Part shown: piece by piece, positions 10,205 through 32,159 of the stretch
How positions within the stretch are numbered: the first letter of the stretch is position 1
Layout: each line of letters opens with the position of its first letter
From: Simplicispira hankyongi
Lineage (GTDB): Bacteria > Pseudomonadota > Gammaproteobacteria > Burkholderiales > Burkholderiaceae_C
Length of the DNA: 64,000 nucleotides
Direction of reading: 5' to 3'
NCBI RefSeq assembly: GCF_003570885.1
Contig: NZ_QXJC01000001.1
Location: forward strand, 558,001 to 622,000
Notes under the pieces: model-generated
Told to the model about the DNA's origin: nothing
Database searches by the model: none
The model's input: only the letters and a program-made list of their open reading frames with translations
Position numbers and translations under genes: made by a program

Positions 10205-10562
10205 ACTGCGATTCAAACACTTTATTCAAACTTCAGTCAACTTGAAATGTGATTTTGAATCGTAGCCCGACTACGACAACAGAACTTATTCAAAATAACC
10301 AGGCCACCCGTCGACAGCCAAGCAAGAAATCCGCACCAATCCGCCCGACGCTGTGCATCCTTCGCTGGTTGCGGTGGGGCGTTTGATTGAGCGGCACTGC
10401 GCATCGACCCAGCCGCGAGAAACGCAGCCTCCAGAATAGACCGATCTCTTCGTGCCCTGCCCTGCACACCGTGACAGAACGGGGTCGGCCCGCTCCTGCC
10501 TGACATCCCGTTACTCCGGTTACTATTTGCCGAGCAAGGGGAACGAAGGAGGAGCACATCCA
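10205..10562. promoter_or_regulatory. Divergent control region between AbiE and Wadjet operons
   Basis: This gene-free stretch separates two operons that read away from each other, so both promoters should lie here. Near the AbiEi side, TTCAAAC occurs twice and an inverted repeat CGTAG...CTACG lies at about 10260-10275; these are plausible AbiEi operator elements. Nearer jetA, an AAGGAGGAG ribosome binding site stands at about 10546-10554. No certain -35/-10 pair was seen. Confidence 0.4.
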
Positions 10563-13363: not shown

Positions 13364-16300
13364 CAGACGCCCTCTTCACTCCATCGCCGTCACACCGCCC
13401 TGCCCTCCCCGAACCTCAGCGGGAGCGCTGGCAGCCACTGAGGCTGGGTCTGGTCGAACTCTTTCACTACGACAGCGAGGAATTCTGGTTCAGGGACGGC
13501 CATCTGCTCCTGCGAGGCAACAACGGAACAGGCAAATCCAAGGTGCTTTCGCTGACCTTGCCATTCTTGTTCGATGCCCAGTTGCGGCCGTCACGCATTG
13601 AGCCCGATGGCGACAACGGGAAGAAGATGGCCTGGAACCTGCTGATGAGTTCCTATCAACGACGCATCGGCTATACCTGGATCGAATTTGGTCGCCGGAC
13701 AGCAGATGGTGTTTCACACTACCTCACCCTGGGCGCCGGCCTGTCAGCTGCGGTGGGGAAAACACAGGTGGACAGCTGGTTTTTTATCCTTGAAGGCGGG
13801 GCCAACGGCGCGGATCCCCGCATTGGCCAGGATATCTGGCTCACCAATGAACAGAAAATGGTTCTTACCCGGGAGCGCTTGCGCGAAGCGGTTGAAGGAC
13901 AGGGTCGAGGCAAGATTTTCGAGAACGCACACAGCTACCGCCGCGCAGTCGATGAGCGCTTGTTCAAGATTGGGACCAAGCGCTATGAAGCGTTGATGGA
14001 CACCCTGATCCAGCTGCGCCAGCCCCAGTTGTCAAAGAAGCCGGACGAAGCAGGGCTGTCGCATGCATTGACCGAGGCGCTACCGCCCATGCCCATTGAG
14101 CTGCTCGGAGATGTGGCTGAGGCTCTCAACCAGTTGGAGGAGGACCGTATCCAGTTGGAGGACATCCGCTCACTGGAACGTGCCATCAATCACTTCGAAC
14201 AGCGCTACCGCACGTATGCAGGCACGGTGACGCGACGTCAAACCCGAGAGCTCAGGCAGGCCCAGACGGGGTTCGACAAGGCGAGCGAAGGACGCAACAA
14301 GGCCCATGTGGATTTGAAGGAGGCCCAGGACGCAGAAGTCCTGGCCCAAACCGATCACGCGGAGACCAAACAGATTTTGGCCGCTGCCAGGACCCGCCTG
14401 CAAACGCTTCAAAGCGATCCGGCCAATCAAGACGCCAACCGCCTGAGTCAGGCAGAAACCGATGCCAAGGAACGGAAAGCCGAGGCCGAAGCCGCCGAAA
14501 CGCTCCGCAATCAGGCAAAGAAAAACCTGGACAGAGAGGAAGAGCGCAGCCGCCAATCAAACCAGCGCTCAACAGCGGCCAAGAGCGAGCTCCTGACAGC
14601 AAGAGCTCATTGCGCCGAAGCAGCAGAAACGGCGGGTACGGCGTCCTCGCTCACGGACAACCTGCTGATCACCCTCGTGCCGGAAGATCTGCCCCAGCTG
14701 GCTCCTGCAGAAATCCAGCAAGCGGCAACTCTGCTGCGCAATGCCACCAGCAAACGCCGGGAGGACATTCGTCACCTGGAGTCGCGACATACGGCGGTGA
14801 ATGTCAAGCAACAGGCTCTGGTCAATCTGCAGGCCTCGCAACGTGATCGCCAGGCAGAGCTGGAAGAAGCGGCTGAGCGACGGGCCGTGGCCGACCTGGA
14901 CACCGAAACTGCTGGCAACGAGCTGATCGACGCTTGGCACACCCATTGTTCCAACCTGGTCCACCTTCACCTTGACCAAGTTGCACCACTGGAACAACTT
15001 GTCGATTGGGTTACACGTCCAGAAGGTGCAAACCCCATTCAAGAGGCATTGACCGAGGCGTATCGGAAATCGACCCAACGCCATGCCGCCCAGCACTCGG
15101 CGTTGACTACCCAACAGAACACCCTCCAGTCCGAACAGGAAACGCTCAGCACTGAAAGGGATCGGCTGCTCGCCGGACACGATGCGGTTCCCACGCCTCC
15201 AGCCATGCGCGCCGCGGGGATACGCGATGAACGTCCAGGGGCTCCGTTGTGGCGACTGGTGGACTTTCAGCCGGATCTCGACGCGAAGCAGCGAGCGGGA
15301 TTGGAGGCCGCGCTTGAAGCCTCGGGCCTGCTGGACGCCTGGCTGTCGCCCGACGGTGCATTGGTAGACGCCAATGGTGTGCAGTTGCTTGACAGCTCAT
15401 GGGTACGTCGCCCGCCGATCCCTGGCCACCACCTTGCGAGCGCGCTGCACCCCGACGTCCCTGACGACAGCGCAGTGACCGCTGAACTGGTCGCGTCCTT
15501 GCTTGCCACCGTAGCGTATGGGTCGGAAGATCACGGCGAGAGCGAGTCGTGGGTCAGCGAGCGAGGCGGTTACCGCTTAGGTGCTCTCGCCGGCGCCTGG
15601 CAGAAGACACAGGCTGTCTACATTGGTCACACAGCCCGCGCGAACGCACGACAACGACGCCTCAACGAGATTGCCGACCGTCTGGACGAGATCGTCACGC
15701 TGCTGGAAGAGTTGCAACAAAAATTCCTGCGCCTCGCACAGGATGGACAAGAGGCGGAGCGTGAATGGAAGGGCGCGCCTTCCGACCATTCGCTGCGCGC
15801 GGCGATTCTCGCTGCGGCCGGTGCGGAGCGGGAAGTGCTCCAGGCCCGTCAGCGTCTTGACGCTGCGGATGCCCAATGTCGAACCGCTGAAGCGGAACTT
15901 CAGTCCGCCCGCGAGACCTTGGAGCGCGACGCTGCTGACCTTCAATTGCCTGCGGTGCTTGCGGACTTGTCGCTCATCAACGAAGCATTGGACCGATTCG
16001 CCAACGCTCATCAGCAACTGGCCCTGGCAACACGGGAATGGTGCAGTGCCTGGCCCGAGTACCAGACGCAACAGGAGCGTGAGAAAGAGGCTGTGGAGAC
16101 CATGAGCGAACGGGAAGCGTCGTTCTTCGCAGCCAGCGAGCGCGCAGCTGAGTCTGCGGCGCGATATGAAGTCCTGAAAGGAATGATCGGCGCCAAGGTT
16201 GAAACGCTGCGTCAACAGCTGCAAGATGCATCCGCAGAGGTATCGATTGCCAATGGTGCGTGGGAAGCCGCCCAGTCTGCATTGACAACGGCCAGCGAGA

Positions 16301-17529
16301 AGCGTGCGGTGGCGGCAAGCCAAGCAGACACCGCTGACGCCGTACTGGCTGAACGAGCAGCCACCCGCGCGCACGCCATAGAGCGCTTGCAGCGCTTCAC
16401 CGAGAGCAGCTTGCTGGCATCCGCTCTTCCGGACTTTCCGGTTCCGGACGGGAACATCCCCTGGACCATTGACCCGGCTTTGAACCTCGCTCGTAGGGCG
16501 GAGCACGCTCTCGCCCACATTGCAGACGATGAGGCGGCATGGGGTCGGATTCAACGACAGATCGCTGAAGACCTGACCGAGTTGCAGCGATCACTCAGTT
16601 CGCTGGGCCATCAGGCGACCTCGGAACCCAATGACTGGGGATTCTCTGTTCATGTTATCTACCTGAACAGGCCTGAGCGACCCGACGCACTGTCCAATCG
16701 GCTGGCCGACGAGATTGCGCAACGCAGCGAATTGCTCACAGCCAAAGAACGGGAGGTTCTGGAGAACCACTTGCAGGCGGAAATCGCTGCCGAGATTCAG
16801 CGCCTGATGCGCGCCGCCGACAAGCAGGTGGATGCCATCAACGAAGAGCTCCGCAAACGCCCCACGTCCACGGGGGTGCGCTACCGATTGCAGTGGCTCC
16901 CTCTGACACCGGAACAGGGCGCCCCCACCGGTCTTGAAGTCGCCCGCGAACGCTTGCTCAACCGAAGTGCCGACATGTGGTCGGCTGAAGACCGCAGCGT
17001 GGTGGGTGCCATGCTTCAGCAGCAAATCGCGGCGGAGCGCGCGCAAGCAGACGCCGGCACCACAGGTTCAAGCCTGGTTGAGCAGTTGGCAAAAGCTTTG
17101 GACTATCGCCGCTGGCATCGGTTCAGCGTACAAAGGCATCAGGATGGTCAGTGGCGCAAGCTCTCTGGTCCAGCCTCCAGCGGGGAACGCGCACTCGGTC
17201 TGACTGTTCCCTTGTTTGCGGCCATTTCCAGCTTCTACGGACGAGGAGGCAGCCCACACGCACCTCGCCTGATGCTGCTCGATGAGGCGTTTGCAGGCAT
17301 CGACGACGCGGCCCGAGCACATTGCATGGGACTGATACGCGAGTTCGATCTGGATTTCGTGATCACCAGTGAGCGCGAGTGGGCCTGCTACGCAGAGCTT
17401 CCTGGCGTATCGATCTGCCAGCTCCAACGCCGCGAAGGCGTGGACGCGGTCTTCGTCTCTCGTTGGGCCTGGGATGGTCGAGCCAAGCGGCGGGAAGACG
17501 ACCCGGACCGCCGCTTTCCCACTCAGTGA
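13360..17529 (+). CDS. jetC: Wadjet JetC, SMC-like ATPase (TIGR02680-like)
   Basis: A 1389-residue ATPase, the motor of the complex. Walker A is GNNGTGKS at residues 53-60. An ABC signature-like SSGERALGL lies at about 1273-1281, and Walker B RLMLLDEAF at about 1303-1311. Between them are long coiled coils rich in Glu, Gln, Ala and Arg, interrupted by a hinge-like globular part around residues 600-740 (APLWRLVDFQPDLDAKQRAGLE). Size and order match the SMC-like member of the TIGR02677-02680 gene set. The ATPase motifs look complete, so the system is probably active. Confidence 0.92.
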   Translation: MTDALFTPSPSHRPALPEPQRERWQPLRLGLVELFHYDSEEFWFRDGHLLLRGNNGTGKSKVLSLTLPFLFDAQLRPSRIEPDGDNGKKMAWNLLMSSYQRRIGYTWIEFGRRTADGVSHYLTLGAGLSAAVGKTQVDSWFFILEGGANGADPRIGQDIWLTNEQKMVLTRERLREAVEGQGRGKIFENAHSYRRAVDERLFKIGTKRYEALMDTLIQLRQPQLSKKPDEAGLSHALTEALPPMPIELLGDVAEALNQLEEDRIQLEDIRSLERAINHFEQRYRTYAGTVTRRQTRELRQAQTGFDKASEGRNKAHVDLKEAQDAEVLAQTDHAETKQILAAARTRLQTLQSDPANQDANRLSQAETDAKERKAEAEAAETLRNQAKKNLDREEERSRQSNQRSTAAKSELLTARAHCAEAAETAGTASSLTDNLLITLVPEDLPQLAPAEIQQAATLLRNATSKRREDIRHLESRHTAVNVKQQALVNLQASQRDRQAELEEAAERRAVADLDTETAGNELIDAWHTHCSNLVHLHLDQVAPLEQLVDWVTRPEGANPIQEALTEAYRKSTQRHAAQHSALTTQQNTLQSEQETLSTERDRLLAGHDAVPTPPAMRAAGIRDERPGAPLWRLVDFQPDLDAKQRAGLEAALEASGLLDAWLSPDGALVDANGVQLLDSSWVRRPPIPGHHLASALHPDVPDDSAVTAELVASLLATVAYGSEDHGESESWVSERGGYRLGALAGAWQKTQAVYIGHTARANARQRRLNEIADRLDEIVTLLEELQQKFLRLAQDGQEAEREWKGAPSDHSLRAAILAAAGAEREVLQARQRLDAADAQCRTAEAELQSARETLERDAADLQLPAVLADLSLINEALDRFANAHQQLALATREWCSAWPEYQTQQEREKEAVETMSEREASFFAASERAAESAARYEVLKGMIGAKVETLRQQLQDASAEVSIANGAWEAAQSALTTASEKRAVAASQADTADAVLAERAATRAHAIERLQRFTESSLLASALPDFPVPDGNIPWTIDPALNLARRAEHALAHIADDEAAWGRIQRQIAEDLTELQRSLSSLGHQATSEPNDWGFSVHVIYLNRPERPDALSNRLADEIAQRSELLTAKEREVLENHLQAEIAAEIQRLMRAADKQVDAINEELRKRPTSTGVRYRLQWLPLTPEQGAPTGLEVARERLLNRSADMWSAEDRSVVGAMLQQQIAAERAQADAGTTGSSLVEQLAKALDYRRWHRFSVQRHQDGQWRKLSGPASSGERALGLTVPLFAAISSFYGRGGSPHAPRLMLLDEAFAGIDDAARAHCMGLIREFDLDFVITSEREWACYAELPGVSICQLQRREGVDAVFVSRWAWDGRAKRREDDPDRRFPTQ

Positions 17530-17534
17530 TCCAC

Positions 17535-18821
17535 ATGGCGAACGATCCCGGTATTGATCCAAGGCTGATCCGAAGGCTCGGGGGCGGCGAGCTTGCTGAA
17601 TTGCGACAGCGGATGAGGCAGCATTTCGAGCGCCATGGACGCACTCCAGAAAAATCGGGCTTCCACCTGACCAAGCTGAGCGCCGTTGAATACGAGGCGT
17701 TGGCTCTGCTCATCGGTCTACCTCCTCGATCCACCCAATCTGTCCGAATCGACATTGCCCGGTTCGACGCTGCCCTGCAGCATGCGGGCATGGCCAACTC
17801 GCTTCATGAAGCCCTGGAAATGCTGGATGGCCCCATCGTGAACCGAGCAGAGGCCAAGGCCGAGCTGCAGTCACGCTGGTCCAGCGTCACCGACGGTCAA
17901 GGGCTTCACCCCTCTCTGCAGGCGTGGTTGCAGGGTGCATCAGCCGTCGGCCTGCTCAAGCGGGTGTCCAAACAGGAGACCCAAACGGCTCACCTACTGC
18001 TTCAGCAAGCGCACGTGGTCTTGCTTCGCCTGCCAGCCCAGGGTCTGACACGCGCCCAACTGGCCGCCGAAGTGCTCGGCAATGCCCATGCCCTCGACAC
18101 TGGACAAGCCGTAGCTTCGGTTGTGTTGGCCGTATTGCAACATGGCGCCAGTACCGATGAGCAGGAACAACCCCCTTCTGAGGAAGCCACAGAGGAAGCA
18201 GATGGCGCTCGTCGACCCAACGAACGGGTGCGAGATATCTGGGCTCGATCGGGCGTGCTCGTCAACGAGTTGGCCCGCCCTGCCCTGTTTCTGAATCTGC
18301 CAGTCCGCACTCCATCAAACACGCTGGCCGCACCAGGTGAACCAGGATACCTTTCCCTGCGCCGCCTCGTGAGAACACCGCCTGACTGGGACGTTGCGGA
18401 TCAGATCATCTATGTCTGCGAGAACCCCAACATCGTCTCGATTGCAGCGGATCAACTTGGTGCCGCATGTGCTCCGCTCGTATGCACCGACGGCATGCCT
18501 GCAGCCGCGCAGCGTGTGCTGTTGAAAAAGCTGTCAGACGCTGGAGCCAAGCTGCTGTATCACGGTGACTTTGATTGGGCTGGTATTCACATCGCCAACA
18601 ACGTCATGAAGCTCTGCGATGCACGTTCATGGCGATTTGGAGCCGAGGACTATCTCCAGGCAGTCAAGTCCCTCGCGCCCAAGGAGCGGGACCTAGAGGT
18701 TGTGCGCATTGCCGCATCTTGGGACTTTGCTTTGGTCGAGTCGATGCGATTGAAGGGAGTAGCCATAGCTGAAGAGGCTGTAGTCTCGCAATTGGTTGGT
18801 GATCTGCGGCATCCCCTTTGA
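17535..18821 (+). CDS. jetD: Wadjet JetD nuclease subunit (DUF2399, Toprim-like)
   Basis: A 428-residue protein. The ATG at 17535, 5 bp after jetC, gives the family-typical start; a longer in-frame extension overlaps jetC and is rejected. The DUF2399/TIGR02679 C-terminal domain is clear: VADQIIYVCENPNIVSIAAD with a Toprim-like glutamate, then YHGDFDWAGIHIANNVM with the paired acidic residues (residues 342-358). In Wadjet this subunit cuts the DNA. It completes the four-gene operon in the usual order A-B-C-D. Confidence 0.92.
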   Translation: MANDPGIDPRLIRRLGGGELAELRQRMRQHFERHGRTPEKSGFHLTKLSAVEYEALALLIGLPPRSTQSVRIDIARFDAALQHAGMANSLHEALEMLDGPIVNRAEAKAELQSRWSSVTDGQGLHPSLQAWLQGASAVGLLKRVSKQETQTAHLLLQQAHVVLLRLPAQGLTRAQLAAEVLGNAHALDTGQAVASVVLAVLQHGASTDEQEQPPSEEATEEADGARRPNERVRDIWARSGVLVNELARPALFLNLPVRTPSNTLAAPGEPGYLSLRRLVRTPPDWDVADQIIYVCENPNIVSIAADQLGAACAPLVCTDGMPAAAQRVLLKKLSDAGAKLLYHGDFDWAGIHIANNVMKLCDARSWRFGAEDYLQAVKSLAPKERDLEVVRIAASWDFALVESMRLKGVAIAEEAVVSQLVGDLRHPL

Positions 18822-18959
18822 AGTCAAATTGAACCTGAAGTGCATTCGTGTGCACCCTGTCTCGCTTGCCTCAGCGTCCGACCACCCTAAGAAGCGCTGC
18901 TCTTTGATACGATGAGTTTCAAGATGCAACGCCTTTTCAAGGCAAACAGGGAGCACCAC

Positions 18960-19430
18960 ATGGCCAATAGCCGCAACGTATTCATCAGCCACATCCATGA
19001 AGATGATCACCGTCTCACCCCGTTGAAGGACTTGCTGAACAAAGCAGGCATGGAGGTCCGGGACGGATCCATTCACAGCGACAAGCCCAACAACGCCAAG
19101 AGCCCGGACTACATAAAATCCGAAATCCTAAAGCCCCGGATCGAATGGGCTTCAGTGCTGGTGGTTCTGATTTCCCCAGACACAAAGGACAGTGATTGGG
19201 TGTCTTGGGAGATCGAATGTGCCGAGCGCATGGGTAAGCGAATTGTGGGTGTCTGGGACCACGGAGAGGCCCAATGCGACATGCCGCCTGCGCTTGACCA
19301 GTACGCAGACGCCATTGTGGGCTGGCAGGGTGAACGCGTGAAAGACGCGATCGAAGGACGCATCAACAATCGCGAACAGTCGGATGGCTCGCCCGCAAGT
19401 CCGCGCTCAGTCCCTCGGTATTCCTGCTAA
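18960..19430 (+). CDS. ThsB-like TIR-domain protein
   Basis: A 156-residue protein; the ATG at 18960 follows a GGGAG site. The upstream ATG at 18912 would add 16 residues and lacks a good site. It matches the TIR-like (MTH538/ThsB) family: RNVFISHIHEDDHRLTPLKDLLNKAGMEVRDG, SEILKPRIEWASVLVVLISPDTKDSDWVSWEIECAERMGKRIVGVW. The glutamate in SWEIECA is at the expected catalytic position for NAD-consuming TIRs. In Thoeris, such proteins make a cyclic ADP-ribose-type signal. Here the neighbour is not a ThsA (SIR2-SLOG) but an Nmad2 protein, and a SLOG-like gene ends the cluster. It is first of six same-strand genes. Confidence 0.8.
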   Translation: MANSRNVFISHIHEDDHRLTPLKDLLNKAGMEVRDGSIHSDKPNNAKSPDYIKSEILKPRIEWASVLVVLISPDTKDSDWVSWEIECAERMGKRIVGVWDHGEAQCDMPPALDQYADAIVGWQGERVKDAIEGRINNREQSDGSPASPRSVPRYSC

Positions 19431-19440
19431 TCCATCGGCT

Positions 19441-20073
19441 ATGCACTTGTATTCCTATGTGGTGGCGCGTGACTATGGTTTTGCGCCCAACCCATTCGGT
19501 GGCGTCTGCACCCTCGCCACTTGCAAGCCAGAGATCCGCCAACGTGCGGACGTGGGGGATTGGGTAGCCGGGTTGACCTCGGCAGCTGATCGGGCCACGC
19601 TAGGCTTCGTTTACATCATGAAGGTAGATGAAGTTCTCACTTACGATGCTTACTGGAACGACGCTCGATTCCAGCTTAAGAAGCCATCTCGCCGTGGAAG
19701 TGTGAAGCAACTGTTTGGGGACAACATTTATCACCAGAGCCCGACAGGTGTCTGGCATCAGGCGGACTCTCATCACAGCCTTGATGGGGGCGGCGCCAAC
19801 CCAAGGAACATTGCTAACGACACAAGGTCGCACGGCGTGTTGGTCGGCCGTCGCTTCGCTTACTGGGGCAGCGCGGCCATTGATGTCCCGCAAGAATTTC
19901 TTAACTTCAATGGACACAGCATTCGACTGAATCGAGGGTATCGGTCGAAGTTTCCAGATGAATTCATCCGGGCCTTTGTCTCCTGGTTCGAATCGCTGGA
20001 TGCACAGGGGTTTATTGCGCCTCCTTTCATGTGGCAGCGTCAGCGCTCAACCTGGGCCCGCCCGCAAACCTGA
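19441..20073 (+). CDS. Nmad2-like protein (nucleotide-modification associated domain 2)
   Basis: A 210-residue protein starting at ATG 19441, 10 bp after the TIR gene; a longer form from 19384 would overlap it. The beginning MHLYSYVVARDYGFAPNPFGGVCTLATCKPEIR is characteristic of Nmad2, followed by VGDWVAGL and YWGSAAIDVP. Nmad domains were defined by their presence near DNA base-modification genes in phages and islands; their activity is not established. Its place between a TIR protein and a MazG-like enzyme suggests sensing or handling of modified nucleotides. This role is inferred. Confidence 0.72.
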   Translation: MHLYSYVVARDYGFAPNPFGGVCTLATCKPEIRQRADVGDWVAGLTSAADRATLGFVYIMKVDEVLTYDAYWNDARFQLKKPSRRGSVKQLFGDNIYHQSPTGVWHQADSHHSLDGGGANPRNIANDTRSHGVLVGRRFAYWGSAAIDVPQEFLNFNGHSIRLNRGYRSKFPDEFIRAFVSWFESLDAQGFIAPPFMWQRQRSTWARPQT

Positions 20074-20094
20074 CAGGGTATTCATGGAGTCCAA

Positions 20095-21312
20095 ATGCCA
20101 AACGCCGTTCCAAAGCAACCTCCACTTACCCTCTCGCAGTACGCCAGCGCCGCAAGCGAGACGGACCGCTTTGCCAAGGTTCCGGGTGGAACCAGCAAGC
20201 TTACGTTCGGTTTTTTCGGCGAGGTTGGGGGATTGCTCGCTGCACTTAAGAAAGTCAATCGCGATCAACTCCTGGAATCGGAGACCGAGGTAGCAGGAGA
20301 AGAAATCGGCGATGCGCTTTGGTACCTCGTCGCAATGTCGGCAGCCCAAAACGTTGATCCTCAGCAACTCGGTCAGCATTGCCTCGCTTCGCTCCGTAAG
20401 CGATTTAATGAGTGTGACCATGATGGCCATGGTGCTGTCAGCTTTAGACAGATCGACGGCATCATTGACGTTCATGGCAGCGACTTGGCTCCGCGCCGAG
20501 TCGAACTGCTAAGTGAACTCGCACGAATGAGCGGTGAGGTGGTCGGCCACGGTACCCGCGAACAGTTGAGCCTAGGGGACGCTACTCGCGCCGATCAGTT
20601 CGGCCAATTGTTGGCCGTTCTCGGCCTTGTCTGCGCGTCATTCTTGCTGAAGCTGGAGGACGTCGCCCGAGACAATCTGGTGAAAATCCGCGGACGCTGG
20701 CCAGGGTCATCTAGAGCCTACCGGGATGCGTTCGATAACAGCTTCCCTGAACATGAACGGCTTCCTCGGATCCTACCCATTGAATTCATCGAACGCGGGC
20801 GAGTGGGTAGTACGTACGTGGTGCAGCGACTCAATGGAGTTCATGTTGGCGACCGTCTCACAGACAACAGCAATGAGGCCGATGACTATCGCTTTCACGA
20901 CGTGTTCCACCTTGCCTACGTGGCGCATCTAGGGTGGTCACCTGTGATCCGTTCTCTGCTGAAGCTCAAGCGAAAATCCAACGCTGCGGTCGACGAAAAT
21001 GAGGACGGCGCCCGCGCGATGATCATCGAAGAGGGGATCGCCACGTGGATATTCAACCATGCCAAGAGGCGCCGCTTCTACGAAGACGTGGAGCCCGGAA
21101 AGCTCGACTACGGTCTTCTCAAACAAGTCCACAGTATGGTGAGTGGCTACGAGGTTGATTCCTGCCCATTGTGGCAATGGGAACAGGCGATACTTGACGG
21201 GTTTCGCGTCTTTCGCGAGTTGCGAAAGACCGAGCACCGTGGAGGTATGGTCGTGGTGAACATGACCGATCACACCTTGACGTTTCAGCCAGCAACAAGA
21301 AGTGCCGAATGA
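20095..21312 (+). CDS. MazG-like nucleoside triphosphate pyrophosphohydrolase with C-terminal extension
   Basis: A 405-residue protein. Residues ~35-105 form a MazG-type all-alpha fold: FGFFGEVGGLLAALKK with metal-binding glutamates, then EVAGEEIGDALWYLVAMSA, giving the E...EExxD pattern. The remaining ~290 residues look like the MazG C-terminal accessory domain, with FHDVFHLAYVAHLGWSPVIRSLLKLKRKS and EEGIATWIFNHAKRR; this part is helical and rich in His and acidic residues. MazG enzymes split (d)NTPs to monophosphates. It overlaps the next gene by 4 bp (ATGA). A role in removing nucleotides or signals during infection is plausible but unproven. Confidence 0.75.
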   Translation: MPNAVPKQPPLTLSQYASAASETDRFAKVPGGTSKLTFGFFGEVGGLLAALKKVNRDQLLESETEVAGEEIGDALWYLVAMSAAQNVDPQQLGQHCLASLRKRFNECDHDGHGAVSFRQIDGIIDVHGSDLAPRRVELLSELARMSGEVVGHGTREQLSLGDATRADQFGQLLAVLGLVCASFLLKLEDVARDNLVKIRGRWPGSSRAYRDAFDNSFPEHERLPRILPIEFIERGRVGSTYVVQRLNGVHVGDRLTDNSNEADDYRFHDVFHLAYVAHLGWSPVIRSLLKLKRKSNAAVDENEDGARAMIIEEGIATWIFNHAKRRRFYEDVEPGKLDYGLLKQVHSMVSGYEVDSCPLWQWEQAILDGFRVFRELRKTEHRGGMVVVNMTDHTLTFQPATRSAE

Positions 21313-21992
21313 ACCCGAACACCTTCGTTCGAGAACTTGCATCCATCGAACTGATCAACGTGTTCAATCCGTATACGGACACGTGCCATGTGTACGACAA
21401 GAGCAATGCGGCATCTGTGAGACGAAGGAATCTCCGAACGTACTTGAGTGCGGCCCTGGCCCAAGGTGTTGACACGATTTGGATGGGGCGGGATCTTGGA
21501 TACCGCGGAGGCAGGCGCACAGGCTTGGCGTTGACCGACGAGTATCACCTGGTTGATCTGGAGCGTATCTTTCCAAACACGACCTTTTCACGTGCAACGG
21601 TCGGGGACGCCGTTGCGGAACGTACGGCCGCAGAGATCTGGCGTGCTTTGAGATGCATTCCGAAGCAGCCGTTGCTCTGGAACGTCTTTCCACTTCACCC
21701 GCACGAACCCGGGAGCCAATTGAGCAATCGCCGCTTCGCGTCGCGCGAACTAGCGGCCGTTGAGGGGTTAAACGCACAGCTCATCCGTGAGCTGGGCGTC
21801 ACGAGGATCGTCTCGCTTGGTCAAGACGCTGCCCACTACGCAAAGCGATTCGGAGTGGGCGTTGAGACTGTACGGCATCCGAGCTATGGTGGCGTGGTTG
21901 ACTTTCGCCGAGGCATAGCAGAGTTGTATGGGCTTCGGGCAGACCTGATCAATCCTCAACAGAAACAAGCGTGTCTGTTTGCCGCGCAGTAG
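21309..21992 (+). CDS. Uracil-DNA-glycosylase-superfamily protein
   Basis: A 227-residue protein with UDG-like motifs in order: IWMGRDLGYRGGRRTGLALTDE (motif-A position), a conserved PLLWNVFPLHPHEPG strand, and VSLGQDAAHYAK followed by VRHPSYGG (HPS motif). No iron-sulfur cysteine cluster is visible. The motif A residues differ from the canonical GQDPY, so it may act on another base or only bind nucleotides. It is translated in coupling with the MazG-like gene and lies 9 bp before the tandem-TIR gene. Its presence in a defence cluster suggests action on modified or uracil-containing phage DNA. This is inference. Confidence 0.68.
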   Translation: MNPNTFVRELASIELINVFNPYTDTCHVYDKSNAASVRRRNLRTYLSAALAQGVDTIWMGRDLGYRGGRRTGLALTDEYHLVDLERIFPNTTFSRATVGDAVAERTAAEIWRALRCIPKQPLLWNVFPLHPHEPGSQLSNRRFASRELAAVEGLNAQLIRELGVTRIVSLGQDAAHYAKRFGVGVETVRHPSYGGVVDFRRGIAELYGLRADLINPQQKQACLFAAQ

Positions 21993-22001
21993 AAGGCTCC
22001 A

Positions 22002-23189
22002 GTGTCATTGCCCACTCGTCCGTTTCTCGTCCTTTACGTTGCGTGGCATCCAGCGTTCGAAGAAGGACATGCGATCGCCAAAAAACTTTACGATCACTAT
22101 CGGCGTGAGCTATATAGCAATGTTGCGGGTGGTGCAGGACTGAGTGTGATCTACAGGCATGCTCCGGACCCTGCAACGTCAGCGCCAGCAGTAGTCGATT
22201 GCTCAGAAAGCGAAACCTGTGCCGTGGTCATGCTGATCGACGAACACTTTGCCAGTGATGAAAAGTATGTGTCTTGGGCAAAAGACTTGTTCACTCAGAC
22301 AGATGCCATCGGACTAAGTGCTCGCGTTTTTCCGATTGCCATCACCGCTGGGGCAACCCACATTGGATTTGCCGAGCAGGCTGTACGTTGGGACCGATGG
22401 TCAACGCTGGACCATGAAGCGCGGCTGCGCCGCCTGACATCCGATCTGACATATCAGTTTTGCCGGATGTTGCGCGCCTACCTTGAGCACCTTGTCCGGC
22501 CACACGAGGAAGAAACTGCACTGGAACAGTATCTTAGAAAGGTGCAGATCTTCCTCAGCCACTCCAAGCACGACGCTGACGGGGAACGCATCGCCAAAGA
22601 AATTCGACAGCGCATTTTTGCTGGCGATGGTCTAGGTACGTTCTTCGACGTTCACGACATTCCTACAGGTCTGCGCTTTGACAGCGTCCTCTTGCAACAG
22701 GTCAAGGTCAGCGCGGTTGTTGCGGTACACACCGACAGCTTTTCTTCTCGGGAGTGGTGCCGACGGGAAATTATCGAAGCGAAGCGATGGAACGTCCCCT
22801 TGGTCGTCGCGGACTGCATTTCGGACACCGACGAGCGTGGCTTCCCGTATATGGGCAACGTTCCTGTCGTTCGGATGGATCCAGTCAAGGTTGACCGAAT
22901 TGATCACGTCATCGCGCGCCTGCTTGATGAAGTGCTCAAGGACTTCCTATGGAAGTGCCGGGTTCAGTTGATGCAAAACGCTGGAACGCTTGATGCCGTA
23001 TTTTTCCCTCGCTCACCCGAACTTGTCTCGTTGGCTGGGCTGAGCAATCAGGCGGGAGACCGCATTCTCGTCGTCTACCCGGACCCGCCGTTGGGTACTG
23101 AAGAGCAACGTCTCTTTGAACAGATCGCACCGCGCTATCAGTTGCGCAGCCTGACCGAATGGTTGGCATCAGCGAAGGCGACGCAGTGA
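22002..23189 (+). CDS. Tandem-TIR protein
   Basis: A 395-residue protein with a GTG start. Residues ~180-300 are a TIR domain: KVQIFLSHSKHDADGERIAKEIRQ, GTFFDVHDIPTG, AVVAVHTDSFSSREWCRREIIEAKRW, with the putative catalytic glutamate at residue 256. Residues ~8-150 look like a second, diverged TIR/Rossmann half (FLVLYVAWHPAFEEG...AVVMLIDEHFASDEKYVSWAKDLF) in which no WCRxE-type glutamate is seen. A C-terminal segment of ~95 residues follows. It overlaps the SLOG gene by 4 bp. TIR domains typically use NAD+ to produce signals or deplete NAD. Confidence 0.78.
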   Translation: MSLPTRPFLVLYVAWHPAFEEGHAIAKKLYDHYRRELYSNVAGGAGLSVIYRHAPDPATSAPAVVDCSESETCAVVMLIDEHFASDEKYVSWAKDLFTQTDAIGLSARVFPIAITAGATHIGFAEQAVRWDRWSTLDHEARLRRLTSDLTYQFCRMLRAYLEHLVRPHEEETALEQYLRKVQIFLSHSKHDADGERIAKEIRQRIFAGDGLGTFFDVHDIPTGLRFDSVLLQQVKVSAVVAVHTDSFSSREWCRREIIEAKRWNVPLVVADCISDTDERGFPYMGNVPVVRMDPVKVDRIDHVIARLLDEVLKDFLWKCRVQLMQNAGTLDAVFFPRSPELVSLAGLSNQAGDRILVVYPDPPLGTEEQRLFEQIAPRYQLRSLTEWLASAKATQ

Positions 23190-24007
23190 GCTACAGCGAG
23201 CCCCTAAGCCATACTGCCATCGGAATCTCTATCTCTGGCAGCCAGGACATGGAAGCCCTAGGACTTGCCGAAGAGCATCTACGTGATGCCATGACTGAGG
23301 TGGCGCGACACTTGCTGGCGATGGGTGCGCGCTTGGTGTACGGCGGAGACCTCCGGGAGCACGGCTTCACCGAACTGCTCTTCGAATTGGTTGCGAGATA
23401 CCGACGCGATGCGGACGTGGGTGACAGCCGACCCGCCATCGTGAACTACTTGGCGTGGCCGGTTCACCGCAGCATGCAACCCGAAAAAATCCAAACCCAT
23501 TCCCAAGCCGTTGCAGGTCTGGCTGAGCTGCACTACCTAGACATTCAAGGCCGCAATATCGCGGCCGAGAAGCTGGAGGTATCCACCTCGCTTCCTACAC
23601 CCGAAGAATGGTCCACAGGCCTTACCGCCATGCGCCACGTGATGACCAAAACGTGTGACGCGCGAATCATCCTTGGCGGGAAAGTCTCTGAGTTCAAGGG
23701 CCGTATGCCCGGTATTGCTGAAGAAGCTCTTTGCTCCATAGATTCAGGGCAGCCACTGTATGTGCTTGGGGGATTTGGAGGGTGTGCCCGCGGCATCGCC
23801 GAAGAACTGGGCTTGGTCGCTCCGCTTCAAGTACAGGCGACTCCCTGGGGCGACCGCGCCAAATTTAAAGGATTGACCGTTAACGCCCTCAACAATGGCT
23901 TGGATGAAGCTGAGAATCTAACGTTGGCACGAACAGTTCACGTCGACGAAGCCGTCGCGCTCATTCTTAGAGGACTGCTTCGGCGCTTCAGCGATCCTGA
24001 TCGGTAA
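23186..24007 (+). CDS. SLOG-family (Rossmann-like nucleotide-binding) protein
   Basis: A protein of 273 residues from a GTG at 23186 that overlaps the TIR stop by 4 bp (GTGA); an ATG at 23159 would overlap by 31 bp. The fold resembles SLOG domains: TAIGISISGSQDME at the first nucleotide-binding loop, MGARLVYGGDLREHGFTELLFEL, then ARIILGGKVSEFKGRMPGIAEEA and YVLGGFGGCARGIAEELGL. It may belong to the SLOG cluster-3 group, but I am not sure which subfamily. SLOG domains bind ADP-ribose-type nucleotides, as in Thoeris ThsA. No SIR2, nuclease or membrane effector is fused to it. It is last in the six-gene cluster. Confidence 0.7.
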   Translation: MSYSEPLSHTAIGISISGSQDMEALGLAEEHLRDAMTEVARHLLAMGARLVYGGDLREHGFTELLFELVARYRRDADVGDSRPAIVNYLAWPVHRSMQPEKIQTHSQAVAGLAELHYLDIQGRNIAAEKLEVSTSLPTPEEWSTGLTAMRHVMTKTCDARIILGGKVSEFKGRMPGIAEEALCSIDSGQPLYVLGGFGGCARGIAEELGLVAPLQVQATPWGDRAKFKGLTVNALNNGLDEAENLTLARTVHVDEAVALILRGLLRRFSDPDR

Positions 24008-24077: not shown

Positions 24078-24308
24078 TCAAGGACCTTCAGCGGTGTCCC
24101 TGTCCGAATCGTCCCGGCGAGCCGAGCTGAGTGCCTTCTCCAGAGCTTTCTCCACCGCATCAATGCGGGACTGGCACACCTTGTAGGCGGCGACGGATTC
24201 CGTCACGATACTCAACAGATCATCGATGTTCGGTTCCTGCTGGTCACGCAAGGCCTGAGCGTGTTGCTGCAGCGTGCCGTAAGCTTCTTTGAACGTTTTC
24301 TGGGTCAT
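24078..24308 (-). CDS. xseB: Exodeoxyribonuclease VII small subunit, island copy
   Basis: A 76-residue XseB-like protein. The pattern KTFKEAYGTLQQHAQALRDQ followed by NIDDLLSIVTESVAAYKVCQSRIDAVEKALEKAL fits the two-helix small subunit, which joins several copies to one XseA. The start overlaps the stop of the truncated xseA by 4 bp (ATGA). Since the large subunit here is broken, this gene is probably non-functional unless it pairs with the chromosomal XseA at 38716-40026. Confidence 0.8.
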   Translation of the reverse strand: MTQKTFKEAYGTLQQHAQALRDQQEPNIDDLLSIVTESVAAYKVCQSRIDAVEKALEKALSSARRDDSDRDTAEGP

Positions 24309-25021
24309 TGGGCTCTGCCTTTCAACTCAGCGGCACGCTGGCCGTCTCTGAAATCGATGGTGATGTGGGTGTCTAGTGCAGTGGCGCTGGTGATCACCCG
24401 GCCTGTGGCGTCCCTGACGAGTGCAAAGCCTCTGTGGAGCGTCTTCTCGGGTCCCTGCCCTGCGATCTCTCGCATGAGCGCCTGAGCGTTGGTGCTTGCA
24501 TCGGACAAAGTCCTTCGCGCGCGGGCACCTATGTCGTCGAAGGTTCTCGTCACGGCTTCTTGTCGTTGGCGCAGATCGGTGGACACCCTCTCGGAGACAT
24601 AGCGCCATTCCGCTGTGCTCAGTACCTGCGCAGTGCGAAGCGACTGGCTGGCCTCGGCCCGGATTTCGTTCATCAAGGCCGGGACATCCCGCTGTGCCTG
24701 GTGCAGTTGCTGTTGCGCCAGGTGTTGGACGTCGGTCAACTGGCGTTGCGAGGTTTCGGCTGCAACACGCAGTTGATAAGCCGCATCGAGCTTGAGTTCA
24801 GACAACCACGCAGAGGTTTGCTGTTTCGCATGGGCCAATTCCTGTCTGGCGCCCGTTTCCACTGCGGTATAGAGCTGCGTGGTCATGCGACGCGAGTGCT
24901 CCAGGGCATGTGTTGCCCTCTGGGTCACGAATTCGAACATCGCCTTGGCTTCGCGCGTGCGTTTGACGATGGTGTGCTCGATCCCGGCGATGACTTTGGA
25001 GGGGGTGTCAAAACAGGCGTT
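24305..25021 (-). pseudogene. xseA: Exodeoxyribonuclease VII large subunit, 5'-truncated island copy
   Basis: Only the C-terminal 238 residues remain. The open frame runs from the IS3 inverted repeat (25021) with ACFDTPSKVIAGIEHTIVKRTREAKA, the family segment that starts the helical C-terminal part, through long coiled coils, to the closing HRGFALVRDATGRVITSAT. The N-terminal OB fold and the catalytic half are missing, lost at the exact edge of the insertion element. The sequence is quite different from the chromosomal XseA in this window, so it is foreign rather than a recent duplicate. Confidence 0.85.
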
Positions 25022-25084: not shown

Positions 25085-25363
25085 ATGACAAAGCAACCAT
25101 ATCCCGAAGAATTCAAGATCGAAGCGGTCAAGCAGATCACCGAGCGAGGCCACCGGGTGGCCGATGTTTCTGCCCGGATCGGCGTGAGCCAGCACAGCCT
25201 GTACAAGTGGATCAAGGTTTACGCGGTGCCTGCGCCTGAGCGGCAGGCGCAGGCGTCCCAGACTGAGGAACTGCGGCGCCTGAAGGCTGAGCTCAGGCGC
25301 GTGACCGAGGAGCGCGACATCCTAAAAAAGGCCGCCGCGTACTTTGCCAGGCAGTCCGGGTGA
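25085..25363 (+). CDS. IS3-family OrfA (helix-turn-helix protein)
   Basis: A 92-residue protein: the DNA-binding half of the transposase. The segment EEFKIEAVKQITERGHRVADVSARIGVSQHSLYKWIK is the IS3 OrfA helix-turn-helix, followed by a leucine-zipper-like stretch (TEELRRLKAELRRVTEERDILKKAAAYF). An A6G slippery sequence at 25324-25330 lies near the end, in position for programmed -1 frameshifting into orfB to make the full OrfAB transposase. Confidence 0.93.
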   Translation: MTKQPYPEEFKIEAVKQITERGHRVADVSARIGVSQHSLYKWIKVYAVPAPERQAQASQTEELRRLKAELRRVTEERDILKKAAAYFARQSG

Positions 25364-26235
25364 GGTACGCGTTCATCAAGCAGCACGAGCAGGAATACAG
25401 CGTGCGGCGCATGTGCAAGGTGATGCAGGTCCACCCCAGCGGCTATTACGCATGGAAGGCGGCGCCGCAGAGCCTGCGTGCCAAGGAAGACCAGCGGCTG
25501 CTGAGCTTGCTCAAACAGGCGTGGCTGGAGAGCGGCGGGGTCTACGGCTACCGCAAGCTGACGCTGGACATGCGCGACCTGGGTGAGCGCTGCGGCAAGC
25601 ACCGGGTGGCGCGCTTGCTCAAGGGCGAAGGCCTGCGCTCGCAGACGGGCTACGGCCGCAGGCCTGGGATGCGAGGTGGCAAGCCCGCAGTCGTCGCGCC
25701 CAACCACCTGCAGCGCCAATTCACGGTGGCCGAGCCCAACCAGTCGTGGGTCACCGACATCACCTACATCCGAACCCACGAAGGCTGGCTCTACCTGGCG
25801 GTCGTGGTCGACCTGTTCTCTCGTCAAGTGGTGGGCTGGTCCATGGGCAGCCGTATCGACACCGGCCTGGTCCTTGATGCGCTGCTGATGGCGCTGTGGC
25901 GCCGCCAGCCGCAGGCGCCTGTCCTGGTTCACTCCGATCAGGGATGTCAATTCACTGGCCACGAGTGGCAGACCTTCCTGCGTGAACACAACCTTGTCAG
26001 CAGCATGAGCCGGCGCGGCAACTGCCACGACAACGCCGTGGCCGAGAGCTTCTTCCAGTTGCTCAAGCGCGAACGCATCCGCCGGCGGATCTATACAACC
26101 CGTGACGATGCGCGATCGGACGTCTTCAACTACATCGAAATGTTCTACAACTCACAGCGCCGTCATTCGTCGGCTGCCGGGCTATCACCGGTAGAGTTCG
26201 AACAGCGACATTCCCAACGGCTCAAAAGTGTCTAG
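25360..26235 (+). CDS. IS3-family OrfB (DDE integrase-like transposase)
   Basis: A 291-residue protein carrying the DDE core: WVTDITYIR (first Asp), LVHSDQGCQFTG (second Asp) and NCHDNAVAESFFQLLKRE (Glu). An N-terminal HTH_21-type segment (ESGGVYGYRKLTLDMRDLG) precedes them, and the end YNSQRRHSSAAGLSPVEFE is typical. Its frame overlaps orfA by 4 bp and is probably expressed by -1 frameshifting. It is intact. Confidence 0.95.
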   Translation: MRYAFIKQHEQEYSVRRMCKVMQVHPSGYYAWKAAPQSLRAKEDQRLLSLLKQAWLESGGVYGYRKLTLDMRDLGERCGKHRVARLLKGEGLRSQTGYGRRPGMRGGKPAVVAPNHLQRQFTVAEPNQSWVTDITYIRTHEGWLYLAVVVDLFSRQVVGWSMGSRIDTGLVLDALLMALWRRQPQAPVLVHSDQGCQFTGHEWQTFLREHNLVSSMSRRGNCHDNAVAESFFQLLKRERIRRRIYTTRDDARSDVFNYIEMFYNSQRRHSSAAGLSPVEFEQRHSQRLKSV

Positions 26236-29059: not shown

Positions 29060-30430
29060 ATGGACGACGTCGCCGTCATCGACCGCTTCCTGAACACCTT
29101 CTCCACCTACATCGACTCGGGCTTCGGGTTGCTGAGCGGCGAGGTCGCCTTCCTCACCGCCACGCTGGTGGCCATCGACATGACCATGGCCGGCCTGTTC
29201 TGGGCCATGGGCCACGCCACCGGCCAGGGCGAGGATGTGCTGGCCCGGCTGCTGCGCAAGGTGCTCTATGTCGGTGCTTTTGCCTACATCATCGGCAACT
29301 TCAACAGCCTGTCGGGCATCGTGTTCCGCTCGTTCGCCGGGCTGGGCCTGCAGGCCAGCGGATCGGGCATGAGCCTGGCCACCTTCCTGCAGCCCGGTCA
29401 TCTGGCCAAGGCCGGCATCGATGCGGCGGCGCCCATCCTGCAGCAGATCAGCGACCTCTCGGGCTTCCCCGAGGTGTTCATCAACATCGCGCCCATCGTG
29501 GTGCTGTTCCTGGCCTGGCTCGCGGTGATCGTGAGCTTCTTCGTGCTGGCCGTGCAGCTTTTCGTGACGCTGCTCGAGTTCAAGCTCACCACGTTGGCCG
29601 GGTTCGTGCTGGTGCCCTTTGCCTTGTGGAACAAGACCACCTTCCTGGCCGAGAAGGTGCTGGGCAACGTGGTGTCCTCGGGCATCAAGGTGCTGGTGCT
29701 CGCGGTGATCGTGGGCATCGGCACGGGTCTGTTCTCGCAGTTCCAGACCGCTCCGGCCGAGCCCTCCATCGACCACGCGCTGGTGGTGATGCTGGCCTCG
29801 CTGTCCCTGCTCGGACTGGGCATATTCGGGCCTGGCATCGCGACCGGTCTGGTGTCCGGCGCGCCGCAACTGGGTGCGGGTGCGGCGGCTGGAACGGCGC
29901 TGGGTGCCACCGGCCTTGCGGTTGCAGGAGGCGCTGCCGTGGCCGGTGCTGGTGCGGCCGTGGCCGCCGGTACACGCATGGCGCCGGGCGCGGGACGCGC
30001 TGCGATTGGCGGTGGCGCATCGGCGGCCCGATCGGCCAGCGGCCTTGCGGCAGGTGCGAGGTCGGCCTACGAGGCAGGCGCTGCCGCGTCCTCGGGCGGA
30101 CCGCTGCGCGCCGCTGGTGCGGGCGTGGCCAACGTGGCTCGCACGGGTGCCAGCGCCATGGGCCAAAAGCTGACCGAGGGTGCGAAGGCCGTGAAAGACA
30201 AGGTATCGGGCTTCGTGGCCGAGGCCGCTGCGCCTGCTGCGGTATCGGGCGCCGATTCGGCCACGTCCAGTGCAACCACCACGGCACCCGCCAACGAGCC
30301 GGCCTGGGCGCAGCGCATGCGCCGGCGCCAACAGATCGGCCATGCCGCCACGACAGCCGCACACACCCTGCGCGGTGGTGACGGCGGTGGCTCGGGCAGC
30401 GGTCCCAGCCTTCGAGATTCGGATTCCTGA
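29060..30430 (+). CDS. trbL: P-type conjugal transfer protein TrbL (VirB6-like)
   Basis: A 456-residue inner-membrane protein. Five or more membrane segments lie in residues ~25-270 (for example VVLFLAWLAVIVSFFVLAVQLFV), followed by an alanine- and glycine-rich soluble tail of nearly 190 residues. This layout fits TrbL, the polytopic core of the transfer channel. It sits between trbJ and trbF in the usual order. The low-complexity tail is poorly conserved within the family. Confidence 0.88.
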   Translation: MDDVAVIDRFLNTFSTYIDSGFGLLSGEVAFLTATLVAIDMTMAGLFWAMGHATGQGEDVLARLLRKVLYVGAFAYIIGNFNSLSGIVFRSFAGLGLQASGSGMSLATFLQPGHLAKAGIDAAAPILQQISDLSGFPEVFINIAPIVVLFLAWLAVIVSFFVLAVQLFVTLLEFKLTTLAGFVLVPFALWNKTTFLAEKVLGNVVSSGIKVLVLAVIVGIGTGLFSQFQTAPAEPSIDHALVVMLASLSLLGLGIFGPGIATGLVSGAPQLGAGAAAGTALGATGLAVAGGAAVAGAGAAVAAGTRMAPGAGRAAIGGGASAARSASGLAAGARSAYEAGAAASSGGPLRAAGAGVANVARTGASAMGQKLTEGAKAVKDKVSGFVAEAAAPAAVSGADSATSSATTTAPANEPAWAQRMRRRQQIGHAATTAAHTLRGGDGGGSGSGPSLRDSDS

Positions 30431-30442
30431 GGAGAACCCAGC

Positions 30443-31147
30443 ATGCGATTCAAACGACCGCAGGTGCGCTACGCCGACACGCCGCAGCCTGCCACCCCCT
30501 ACCAATCGGCCGCACAGGCCTGGGACGAGCGCATCGGCTCGGCCCGCATGCAGGCCCGCAACTGGCGCCTCATGGCCTTCGGTTGCCTGTCGCTGGCCCT
30601 GCTGATGGCAGGTGGCCTGGTCTGGCGCTCTGCGCAGTCCATCGTCACGCCCTACGTGGTGGAGGTGGACCAGGCCGGTCAGGTGCGAACCGTCGGAGAA
30701 GCCACCTCGCCCTACCGCCCCGGTGATGCGCAGATCGCGCACCACCTCGCCCGCTTCGTAACGCTGGTGCGTTCGCTGTCTATCGACCCGATCGTCGTGC
30801 GTCAGAACTGGTTGGACGCCTACGACTACACGACCGACCGTGGGGCAGCCGTGCTCAACGAGTACGCCCGCACCAACGATCCGTTCGTGCGGGTGGGCAA
30901 GGAGTCAGTGACGGTGCAGATCACCAGCGTGGTCCGCGCCAGCGACGCCTCGTTCAACGTGCGCTGGACCGAACAGCGCTACGTCAATGGCGCGCCGGCC
31001 GGTACCGAGCGGTGGACGGCCGTGGTCTCCACCGTGCTTCAGACGCCGCGCACCGAGCAGCGCCTGCGCAAGAACCCCCTGGGCATCTACGTCAACGGCT
31101 TGTCCTGGAGCCGCGAGCTGGATGCGAACGAAGGAACCAAGCCATGA
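30443..31147 (+). CDS. trbF: Conjugal transfer protein TrbF (VirB8-like)
   Basis: A 234-residue protein with one N-terminal membrane helix at about residues 45-65 (MAFGCLSLALLMAGGLVW) and a periplasmic NTF2-like domain (VVEVDQAGQVRTVGEA, then SVTVQITSVVRASDASFNVRWTEQRY). This is the VirB8-type scaffold of the secretion complex. The stop overlaps the trbG start by 4 bp. Confidence 0.92.
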   Translation: MRFKRPQVRYADTPQPATPYQSAAQAWDERIGSARMQARNWRLMAFGCLSLALLMAGGLVWRSAQSIVTPYVVEVDQAGQVRTVGEATSPYRPGDAQIAHHLARFVTLVRSLSIDPIVVRQNWLDAYDYTTDRGAAVLNEYARTNDPFVRVGKESVTVQITSVVRASDASFNVRWTEQRYVNGAPAGTERWTAVVSTVLQTPRTEQRLRKNPLGIYVNGLSWSRELDANEGTKP

Positions 31148-32157: not shown

Positions 32158-32159
32158 GC

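Follow-up and report, generated by a model that had tools for sequence, protein, structure and literature searches.

A six-gene TIR, Nmad2, MazG_C, glycosylase and SLOG cluster in Simplicispira hankyongi as a possible Thoeris-family operon with a nucleobase-handling front end

Phage sensing by Thoeris-type TIR systems is known for few cases. Here we analysed a stretch of 64,000 nucleotides from the Simplicispira hankyongi contig NZ_QXJC01000001.1 (hereafter, the window) and focused on six of its genes (g1 to g6), which encode a ThsB-type TIR protein (TIR1), an Nmad2 protein, a protein with MazG-like and MazG_C domains, a SMUG1-like protein of the uracil-DNA glycosylase (UDG) family, a second TIR protein and a SLOG protein. 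The cluster appears to wire enzymes for uncommon, uracil-like DNA bases to a shutdown switch based on nicotinamide adenine dinucleotide (NAD), a combination for which no named system was found. Its sensor arm can apparently be read directly from the genes, which seem to encode enzymes for unusual pyrimidines and a possible reader of them.

Among the described relatives, Thoeris types I, II and IV are presented in PMC12948488 and PMC12847820 (papers are cited throughout from excerpts). With type I the cluster shares a ThsB TIR protein, in g1, and a SLOG sensor-type protein, in g6. It differs from type I in that Pfam and PADLOC find neither SIR2 nor the SIR2-SLOG protein ThsA among the six proteins, in that its SLOG protein pairs with a TIR protein, and in three added nucleobase genes. 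Type III is known here from NCBIfam models (ThcA and ThcB4; NF058525 and NF058526), and the phrase "Thoeris type III" was not found in open-access PMC papers. It likewise sets a SLOG protein beside a protein of about 380 residues with one central TIR domain, to which the six-gene set adds the Nmad2, MazG_C and UDG genes.

The cluster may accordingly belong to a named system, with g5-g6 as divergent ThcB4-ThcA and the remaining genes as sensors. Such membership would fit the match of g5 to ThcB4 (E = 1e-7), the match of an E. coli SLOG2 protein to ThcA (4e-4), and the g1-g4 homologues found near ThcA-ThcB4, far above cut-off, on Cupriavidus, Beijerinckia and Sulfitobacter plasmids (L013, L017 and L020). 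The g5 match, however, scores 31.2 bits against a cut-off of 220 and covers the TIR domain only, and g6 has no ThcA match and falls in another SLOG cluster (PF18163, cluster 2) than the ThcA proteins (PF18180, cluster 3). We consider type III membership unlikely. A viral contig (L133) also carries g1-g4 homologues near ThcA-ThcB4, as called by the profiles of this analysis. These neighbourhoods, together with the ThsB model of g1, link the cluster to Thoeris.

An earlier note on this DNA had described the cluster as a candidate undescribed defence system. No named system was matched by the set, no paper on it was found in the open-access PMC literature, and g1 was the only gene to reach a defence model of PADLOC or NCBIfam along its whole length; "undescribed" is nevertheless too strong, since g1 is modelled as ThsB and the g5-g6 pair is related to Thoeris type III. 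Computational work of the Aravind group is reportedly the source of the names Nmad2, MazG_C and HMUDK, and may thus already depict some of these neighbourhoods in part.

Three further systems invite comparison. Brig1, too, is a protein with a UDG fold found in the context of defence, and plausibly removes modified bases; the gene of one Brig1 homologue has a ThsA-like SIR2 gene nearby, as has brig1 itself (PMC11078745). Brig1 acts alone and has a family-4 UDG as its best structural match, whereas g4 is nearest SMUG1 and lies in a six-gene operon. To the EVE domains of the modification-dependent systems of PMC7641849 the predicted model of Nmad2 bears a weak resemblance, and Nmad2 differs in its invariant polar residues; a term search of that paper gave no match to Nmad or MazG, and its four TIR matches read tiRNA in the excerpts. 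Kongming likewise ties deoxynucleotide chemistry to NAD+ depletion (PMC12948488). PADLOC named none of the six genes as Kongming, and its 2023 library may not include that system.

Six genes form one transferable unit

The genes follow one another on the same strand with intergenic spacing of 10, 21, −4, 9 and −4 bp, just as the earlier note had it. Comparison of the whole-window DNA with that of the nearest relative (L026) gave a single match, from 18948 to 23977, in a sequence that extends 6.6 kb before and 2.5 kb after the matched part and whose UDG is 75% identical. The matches to L027, L028, L029 and L067 begin at 18969-18978, and none extends to jetD.

Conservation of the gene order in other genomes, which had been put forward as a check, was found, and it reaches as far as Mesorhizobium. 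All six genes occur in identical order in L026 and L029. The order is also identical in L067, where g6 aligned over its first 47 residues only, and L027 and L028 reach a contig end, at which the g5 of L028 is split over two frames. A Mesorhizobium plasmid (L009) and a genome (G250, locus L119) keep the six-gene order but have an additional TIR gene ahead of g5; in Roseicitreum (L128/L010) the order, also with an extra TIR gene, spans the plasmid origin and has an IS5 insertion. Gallionella (L066) carries the same families in a different order. In the host genome (G000; 3.7 Mb, 19 contigs), the SLOG2, MazG_C and Nmad2 families were each matched once.

The ratio of nonsynonymous to synonymous change (pN/pS) was 0.13-0.40 in all 12 gene comparisons (six genes; window against L026 and L029), with synonymous change near saturation, and all six genes are under purifying selection. 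The recurring order, the similarity that stops at the cluster edges and the low pN/pS indicate that the grouping is more than chance, and the six genes form one transferable unit.

Predicted roles of the six proteins

The chances seem about even that the six genes make up a single mobile operon for abortive infection, of the Thoeris family, in which g3-g4 would be a front end that handles nucleobases, g1-g2 a transducer and g5-g6 an effector. In the front end, MazG/MazG_C and the SMUG1-like glycosylase would act on uracil or a 5-substituted uracil, e.g., 5-hydroxymethyluracil (5-hmU), either as part of the nucleotide pool or within invading DNA. In the transducer, Nmad2, as an EVE/YTH-like reader, would recognise that base or its excision product, and its constant partner TIR1 would in response use NAD+ to make an ADP-ribose-type messenger. 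The SLOG protein would bind this messenger and turn on the TIR domain of g5, so that NAD+ would be destroyed and the infected cell would stop. Gene content, boundaries, gene order, selection, predicted folds, retained catalytic residues and module exchange are what we observed; substrates, messenger, order of action and antiphage activity are what we infer. The proposed trigger is testable: phage DNA that contains uracil or hypermodified thymine, or the pool of nucleotides that underlies such DNA.

On the transducer side, g1 matches ThsB_TIR (PF08937, 5e-23) and, over its full length (residues 1-156), the PADLOC ThsB model PDLC00418 (5e-63). Its family profile matches solved structures of ThsB (9b7d/6lhy, 1.6e-7) and the TIR chain 8wcf (8e-12). 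The catalytic glutamate E84 is kept in 32 of 32 strong TIR1 members, and g1 is proposed as a putative messenger-making NAD+ enzyme. This glutamate is missing from the two weak Pseudomonas members that were aligned (L031 and L048), in which the gene preceding Nmad2 encodes a diverged TIR-like protein.

TIR1 and Nmad2 are adjacent and on the same strand in all 42 loci that hold both, the window included. g2 matches Nmad2 (PF18753) at 1e-66, and the top PDB matches of its predicted model (mean predicted local distance difference test score, pLDDT, 90.2) are EVE/YTH folds, the best at E = 1.3e-3 and none at E ≤ 0.001. The first matches are MJECL36 and PH1033, both of which we take to belong to the EVE group, THYN1 with 5-methylcytosine DNA, and Mmi1; a DrmAB complex and the McrB N-terminus stand in rows 7 and 8. 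The model points weakly to g2 as a candidate modified-base reader of an EVE/YTH-like fold. At another locus (L110:7443-9461), a 673-residue protein carries a C-terminal Nmad2 domain (479-658); the remainder gave no Pfam match at E 0.01, and neither NCBIfam nor PADLOC matched the protein.

In the front end, g3 matches MazG_C (PF18722) at 5e-82 and MazG (PF03819) at 0.058, below the cut-off. The metal motif of MazG nucleoside triphosphate pyrophosphohydrolases, which we take to be ExxE...ExxD, is not complete in the g3 family: the acidic residues E43, E69, E70 and D73 are kept in 97-98 of 98 members, and the second glutamate of ExxE is lost in 96 of 98 (serine or glycine in 93, glutamate in 2). 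In the MazG_C domain, H268, D269 and H272 (HDxxH) and E312-E313 are conserved with at most one exception each among up to 98 members, which suggests a metal site. A relationship between MazG_C and HMUDK was considered, and profile comparison gave no support for it. A tblastn search of 50,697 phage records for a phage origin of g3 found no match; PHROG 229 matches g3 by profile (6.5e-36).

A non-canonical deoxynucleotide could itself be the signal, as in Kongming, where deoxyinosine triphosphate made with the phage DNK triggers NAD+ depletion (PMC12948488). Under such a scheme, 5-hydroxymethyl-deoxyuridine triphosphate or deoxyuridine triphosphate (dUTP) would be bound by MazG/MazG_C as a receptor that activates the TIR proteins, and UDG and other cassettes would make or limit the signal. 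A MazG motif that is partly degenerate and otherwise frozen would suit a receptor, and DNMK, HMUDK and ThyA do lie beside TIR1-Nmad2 at other loci. The four retained acidic residues, however, leave MazG as what may simply be an enzyme, and the pairing of a ThsB-type TIR with a SLOG protein in itself points to an ADP-ribose messenger; we regard the scheme as quite unlikely.

g4 alone has no Pfam match, and the UDG superfamily was matched by 33 of 46 members of its family, at best at 5e-11, in a scan open to E 10. Its predicted model (pLDDT 92.4) has a SMUG fold, with 17 PDB matches at E ≤ 0.001, all of them SMUG1 or SMUG2 (best, 9.6e-8). Neither the homologue L025 as a sequence bridge nor the family profile A6 linked g4 to the SMUG1 structures in PDB, and with the A4 profile the matches were all to other UDGs, none better than E 0.017. 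Profile-profile comparison with six bacterial SMUG1-motif proteins, a set found by motif pattern of which one was checked (1e-79 to Geobacter SMUG1), gave E = 1e-7 and a probability of 94%, and placed GRDLG on GMNPG, WNVFPL on NYCPL and HPS on HPS.

In human SMUG1, Asn85 and His239 are catalytic, the pyrimidine is recognised by Asn163 and Phe98, and the C5 group by Gly87-Met91 (PMC6749576). With these residue numbers placed on the motif by our own alignment step, D62, N125 and H190 of g4 align at Asn85, Asn163 and His239, and Asp62, His190, Asn125, Leu75 and Gly64-Gly68 are each kept in 96-98 of 98 members. The catalytic asparagine of GMNPG is Asp62 in 97 of 98 members, and His190 of HPS is kept. 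The Met91 and Phe98 positions are taken by Gly68 (97/98) and Leu75 (96/98), smaller residues that would give a wider C5 pocket. g4 has the fold and catalytic frame of the SMUG1 glycosylases in common and differs from them by Asp62, Gly68 and Leu75. An important SMUG1 substrate is 5-hydroxymethyl-deoxyuridine (5-hmdU; PMC7922111), and this substrate, the fold and the aligned active site together point the front end towards uracil-type bases. Like SMUG1, g4 may excise uracil or 5-hmU from DNA.

The earlier note had read g5 as a tandem-TIR protein, which did not hold. It has one detectable TIR domain, in its middle part (about 183-262; PF13676, 1.7e-7), which alone aligns to the TIR1 profile (hhalign E = 7e-7); for the N- and C-terminal parts, comparison with the TIR1, SLOG2 and Nmad2 profiles gave no match. 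The other labels (TIR for g1, Nmad2, MazG, UDG-like and SLOG) stood, by Pfam or PADLOC and, for the UDG-like protein, by family and fold. The g5 profile matches AbTIR, TcpB and further TIR proteins, and its catalytic glutamate E256 is present in all 27 members that have a residue at that position (5 others have a gap); g5 is proposed as a candidate NADase effector. g6 belongs to SLOG cluster 2 (PF18163, 2.6e-76) and is proposed, by analogy, as a candidate messenger receptor. Of the 22 loci with a near-full SLOG2 protein, 20 have a strong g5 homologue that is fused to it (as in a 775-residue g5-SLOG2 protein of L116) or lies at most 82 bp away on the same strand. In the other two, g5 is cut by an IS3 element (L007) or the match is weak, 93 residues long and 223 bp away (L120). 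DNA similar to the g5 of the window is present in 16 of 5426 E. coli genomes.

Partners of the modules in other genomes

To follow the front end, we scanned 84,980 species genomes for the UDG family and kept the best 80 of 357 relatives (L026-L105), so the counts lean towards close relatives. MazG_C was present in 77 of these 80 loci, TIR1 with Nmad2 in 25, Nmad2 without a TIR1 call in 3, and a peptidase module in 51, the last defined as at least two of a Pfam-unmatched protein, a C1 peptidase and an ImmA/IrrE peptidase. The two kinds of partner nearly exclude each other: 50 loci had the peptidase module only (one of them without MazG_C), 24 TIR1-Nmad2 only, 1 both (L050) and 5 neither (Fisher p = 1.7e-14, shared descent not corrected for). 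The TIR1 call was strong (E below 1e-50) in 15 of the 25 loci and weak, short or fragmented in L031, L042, L045, L048, L050, L084, L090, L097, L102 and L105. A UDG tree with 97 rows shows 11 switches of the partner label (any Nmad2 versus peptidase), at least 7 of which fall on branches with good support; about 28 changes are needed when the labels are shuffled, so the label is also clustered on the tree.

The MazG_C-UDG pair also seems to be the base of a second family, which is larger and has the peptidase module. In L008 (6464-11871) and in the 51 genome loci, the peptidase module lies on the strand opposite UDG, which is nearly always accompanied by MazG_C. The ImmA/IrrE peptidase is weakly like PADLOC CapP (4.6e-13), annotated plasmids add a helix-turn-helix protein, DUF4031 is often found upstream, and ThyA or dCTP deaminase lies near some of these loci.

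The genes of the cluster could, on another reading, be hitch-hikers: MazG_C-UDG would act on its own against modified DNA of phages or nucleotides of the dUTP type, with Brig1-like excision and pool cleaning, and TIR1-Nmad2 and g5-g6 would be separate Thoeris-like modules that share its islands. The 50 of 80 UDG loci with a peptidase module in place of TIR1-Nmad2 are in keeping with this, and so are Brig1, a UDG-fold enzyme that defends alone (PMC11078745), and the g5-g6 pairs found without g1-g4 within the fetched flanks in several genomes (e.g., L011, L115, L116 and L118), including Klebsiella and P. veronii. The conserved six-gene order, short overlaps and shared boundaries, however, argue for one unit, and the exclusion between partners with its 11 label changes is what would be expected of alternative partners in one pathway, which leaves hitch-hiking somewhat unlikely. 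Independent occurrence of the parts, which the earlier note had named as evidence that would count against a single system, was found by half: the modules do occur apart and are exchangeable, yet the six-gene combination itself is conserved.

The companions of TIR1-Nmad2 were also followed. All 42 TIR1-Nmad2 loci, most of them found through UDG, carry MazG_C and/or HMUDK, the Pfam 5-hydroxymethyl-dU DNA kinase helical domain. MazG_C or HMUDK was also present in each of the 16 TIR1-Nmad2 loci recovered by Nmad2, SLOG2 or g5 searches (L009, L013, L014, L016, L017, L020, L109, L117, L119, L121-L126 and L128, several also found by UDG; 12 of the 17 Nmad2 plasmid records were taken into this set and 5 left out). 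In five of the 16, HMUDK has ThyA, DNMK, TylF or a radical SAM gene as neighbours. The cassettes are ThyA-DNMK-HMUDK in E. coli (by Pfam and annotation), HMUDK-radical SAM in Parabacteroides, ThyA-TylF-HMUDK in Sinorhizobium chiapasense, and MazG_C-HMUDK in Gloeothece, Rhodococcus and G005. HMUDK was confirmed by Pfam in L014, L122 and L125, and a three-member profile found it in L109, L117, L121, L123 and L124 at about 2e-84 or better; all 8 loci, gathered by searches for other families, hold TIR1-Nmad2. On the E. coli chromosome (L014:4650-14510), a TIR-TIR-g5-SLOG2 row adjoins ThyA-DNMK-HMUDK-TIR1-Nmad2.

These MazG_C and HMUDK companions bring out a uracil theme in the front end. The joining of modified- or uracil-base handling with TIR-SLOG signalling, as the earlier note had proposed, is backed by the predicted folds and by these swaps with 5-hmdU-type cassettes. 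TIR-Nmad2 that swaps MazG_C-UDG for 5-hmdU-kinase cassettes, and MazG_C-UDG that swaps TIR-Nmad2 for a peptidase module, both point to a larger modular family of base-sensing defences. Base excision itself might be the alarm that sets off NAD-based shutdown of the cell, with a trigger, produced when MazG_C and the SMUG1-like enzyme excise or hydrolyse a non-canonical pyrimidine (uracil or a 5-substituted uracil), handed by Nmad2 to the TIR protein and coupled to NAD+ chemistry, perhaps as a base-ADP-ribose conjugate, the front end being swappable for 5-hmdU-making cassettes and the transducer for the protease module; we think this very doubtful.

The same cassettes might instead mark the host. 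MazG_C-UDG, ThyA-HMUDK and HMUDK-radical SAM would then install or keep a thymine or uracil mark in host DNA, and Nmad2-TIR1 would attack unmarked DNA. Sets of HMUDK, ThyA, DNMK and radical SAM or methyltransferase genes do resemble base-making pathways, but MazG_C-UDG resemble removers rather than makers, and none of the six cluster genes matched a modification enzyme in Pfam. Such self-marking is highly improbable.

Among nine Nmad2 loci on viral contigs, TIR1 was present in 3 and a cassette gene without TIR1 in 3 (L129, L131 and L135). TIR1-Nmad2 stands with HMUDK in L130, with MazG_C-UDG in L133, and with UDG and dCTP deaminase in L134, where the stretch examined held no MazG_C or HMUDK.

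The g1-g4 relatives associate with several effector types. A patatin-domain protein of about 900 residues lies near TIR1-Nmad2 in ten loci (a 90-residue fragment in one) and is a possible alternative effector; the one in L088 (11973-14789) had no PADLOC or NCBIfam match. These kinds of effector act in NAD- or phospholipid-based abortive infection.

Several observations weigh against a single abortive-infection operon. MazG_C-UDG mostly goes without TIR1-Nmad2, as the peptidase-only loci show, and so has a function of its own; Nmad2 in turn occurs without TIR1 or a cassette in 4 of 5 genomes other than the host's (L110-L113) and alone in 3 of the 9 viral loci (L132, L136 and L137). No profiled effector family was present in 18 of the 42 TIR1-Nmad2 loci, with loose matches (e.g., L013 and L087) counted as present. 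The lost second glutamate of ExxE makes hydrolase activity of g3 uncertain. The fold match of g2 is weak, the Nmad2 sequence profile found no EVE/YTH match, and the invariant Cys, His, Asp and Lys residues of the family could mean an enzyme rather than a reader. The best solved-structure match of SLOG2, a Moco carrier protein, is weak (E = 0.045), so that messenger binding by g6 is suggested by family analogy.

Genomic surroundings of the cluster

The Wadjet operon that the earlier note had placed directly upstream is complete, with 138 bp between the end of jetD and the start of g1 (Table 1). It was considered as a part of the system and rejected: the DNA similarity begins after JetD, and Jet proteins had no match in any of 12 related loci. 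The tie drawn between the two did not survive, and the Wadjet operon is best taken as a chance neighbour.

Scans for promoters and terminators gave one site each, not above shuffled sequences, and tRNA and Rfam scans of the whole window gave no match. The IS3-type pair, the TrbL and TrbI genes and the HTH_38/rve transposase nearby make it seem that the cluster lies in a mobile element.

Table 1 The six genes and neighbouring features, in positions of the window
Feature	Position	Strand	Description
g1	18960-19430	+	ThsB-type TIR protein, 156 aa
g2	19441-20073	+	Nmad2 protein, 210 aa
g3	20095-21312	+	MazG-like domain and MazG_C domain
g4	21309-21992	+	SMUG1-like uracil-DNA glycosylase family protein, 227 aa
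g5	22002-23189	+	GTG start; 395 aa; one TIR domain
g6	23186-24007	+	GTG start; SLOG cluster-2 protein, 273 aa; 4-bp overlap with g5
Wadjet operon (JetA-D)	10452-18821		PADLOC type-2 models, E from 5e-128 to 0
Exonuclease VII-like sequences	24078-24940	-	Small subunit 0.00017 (just below cut-off), large subunit 1.9e-11
IS3-type transposase pair	25085-26235		Judged from open reading frames alone
TrbL and TrbI conjugation genes	29060-33476		
HTH_38/rve transposase	2324-3358		
HsdR N-terminal-like nuclease domain	4388-5500		PF04313, 2.6e-8

The HsdR-like nuclease domain lies upstream of the Wadjet operon, and the exonuclease VII-like sequences sit immediately after the six-gene cluster, on the opposite strand.

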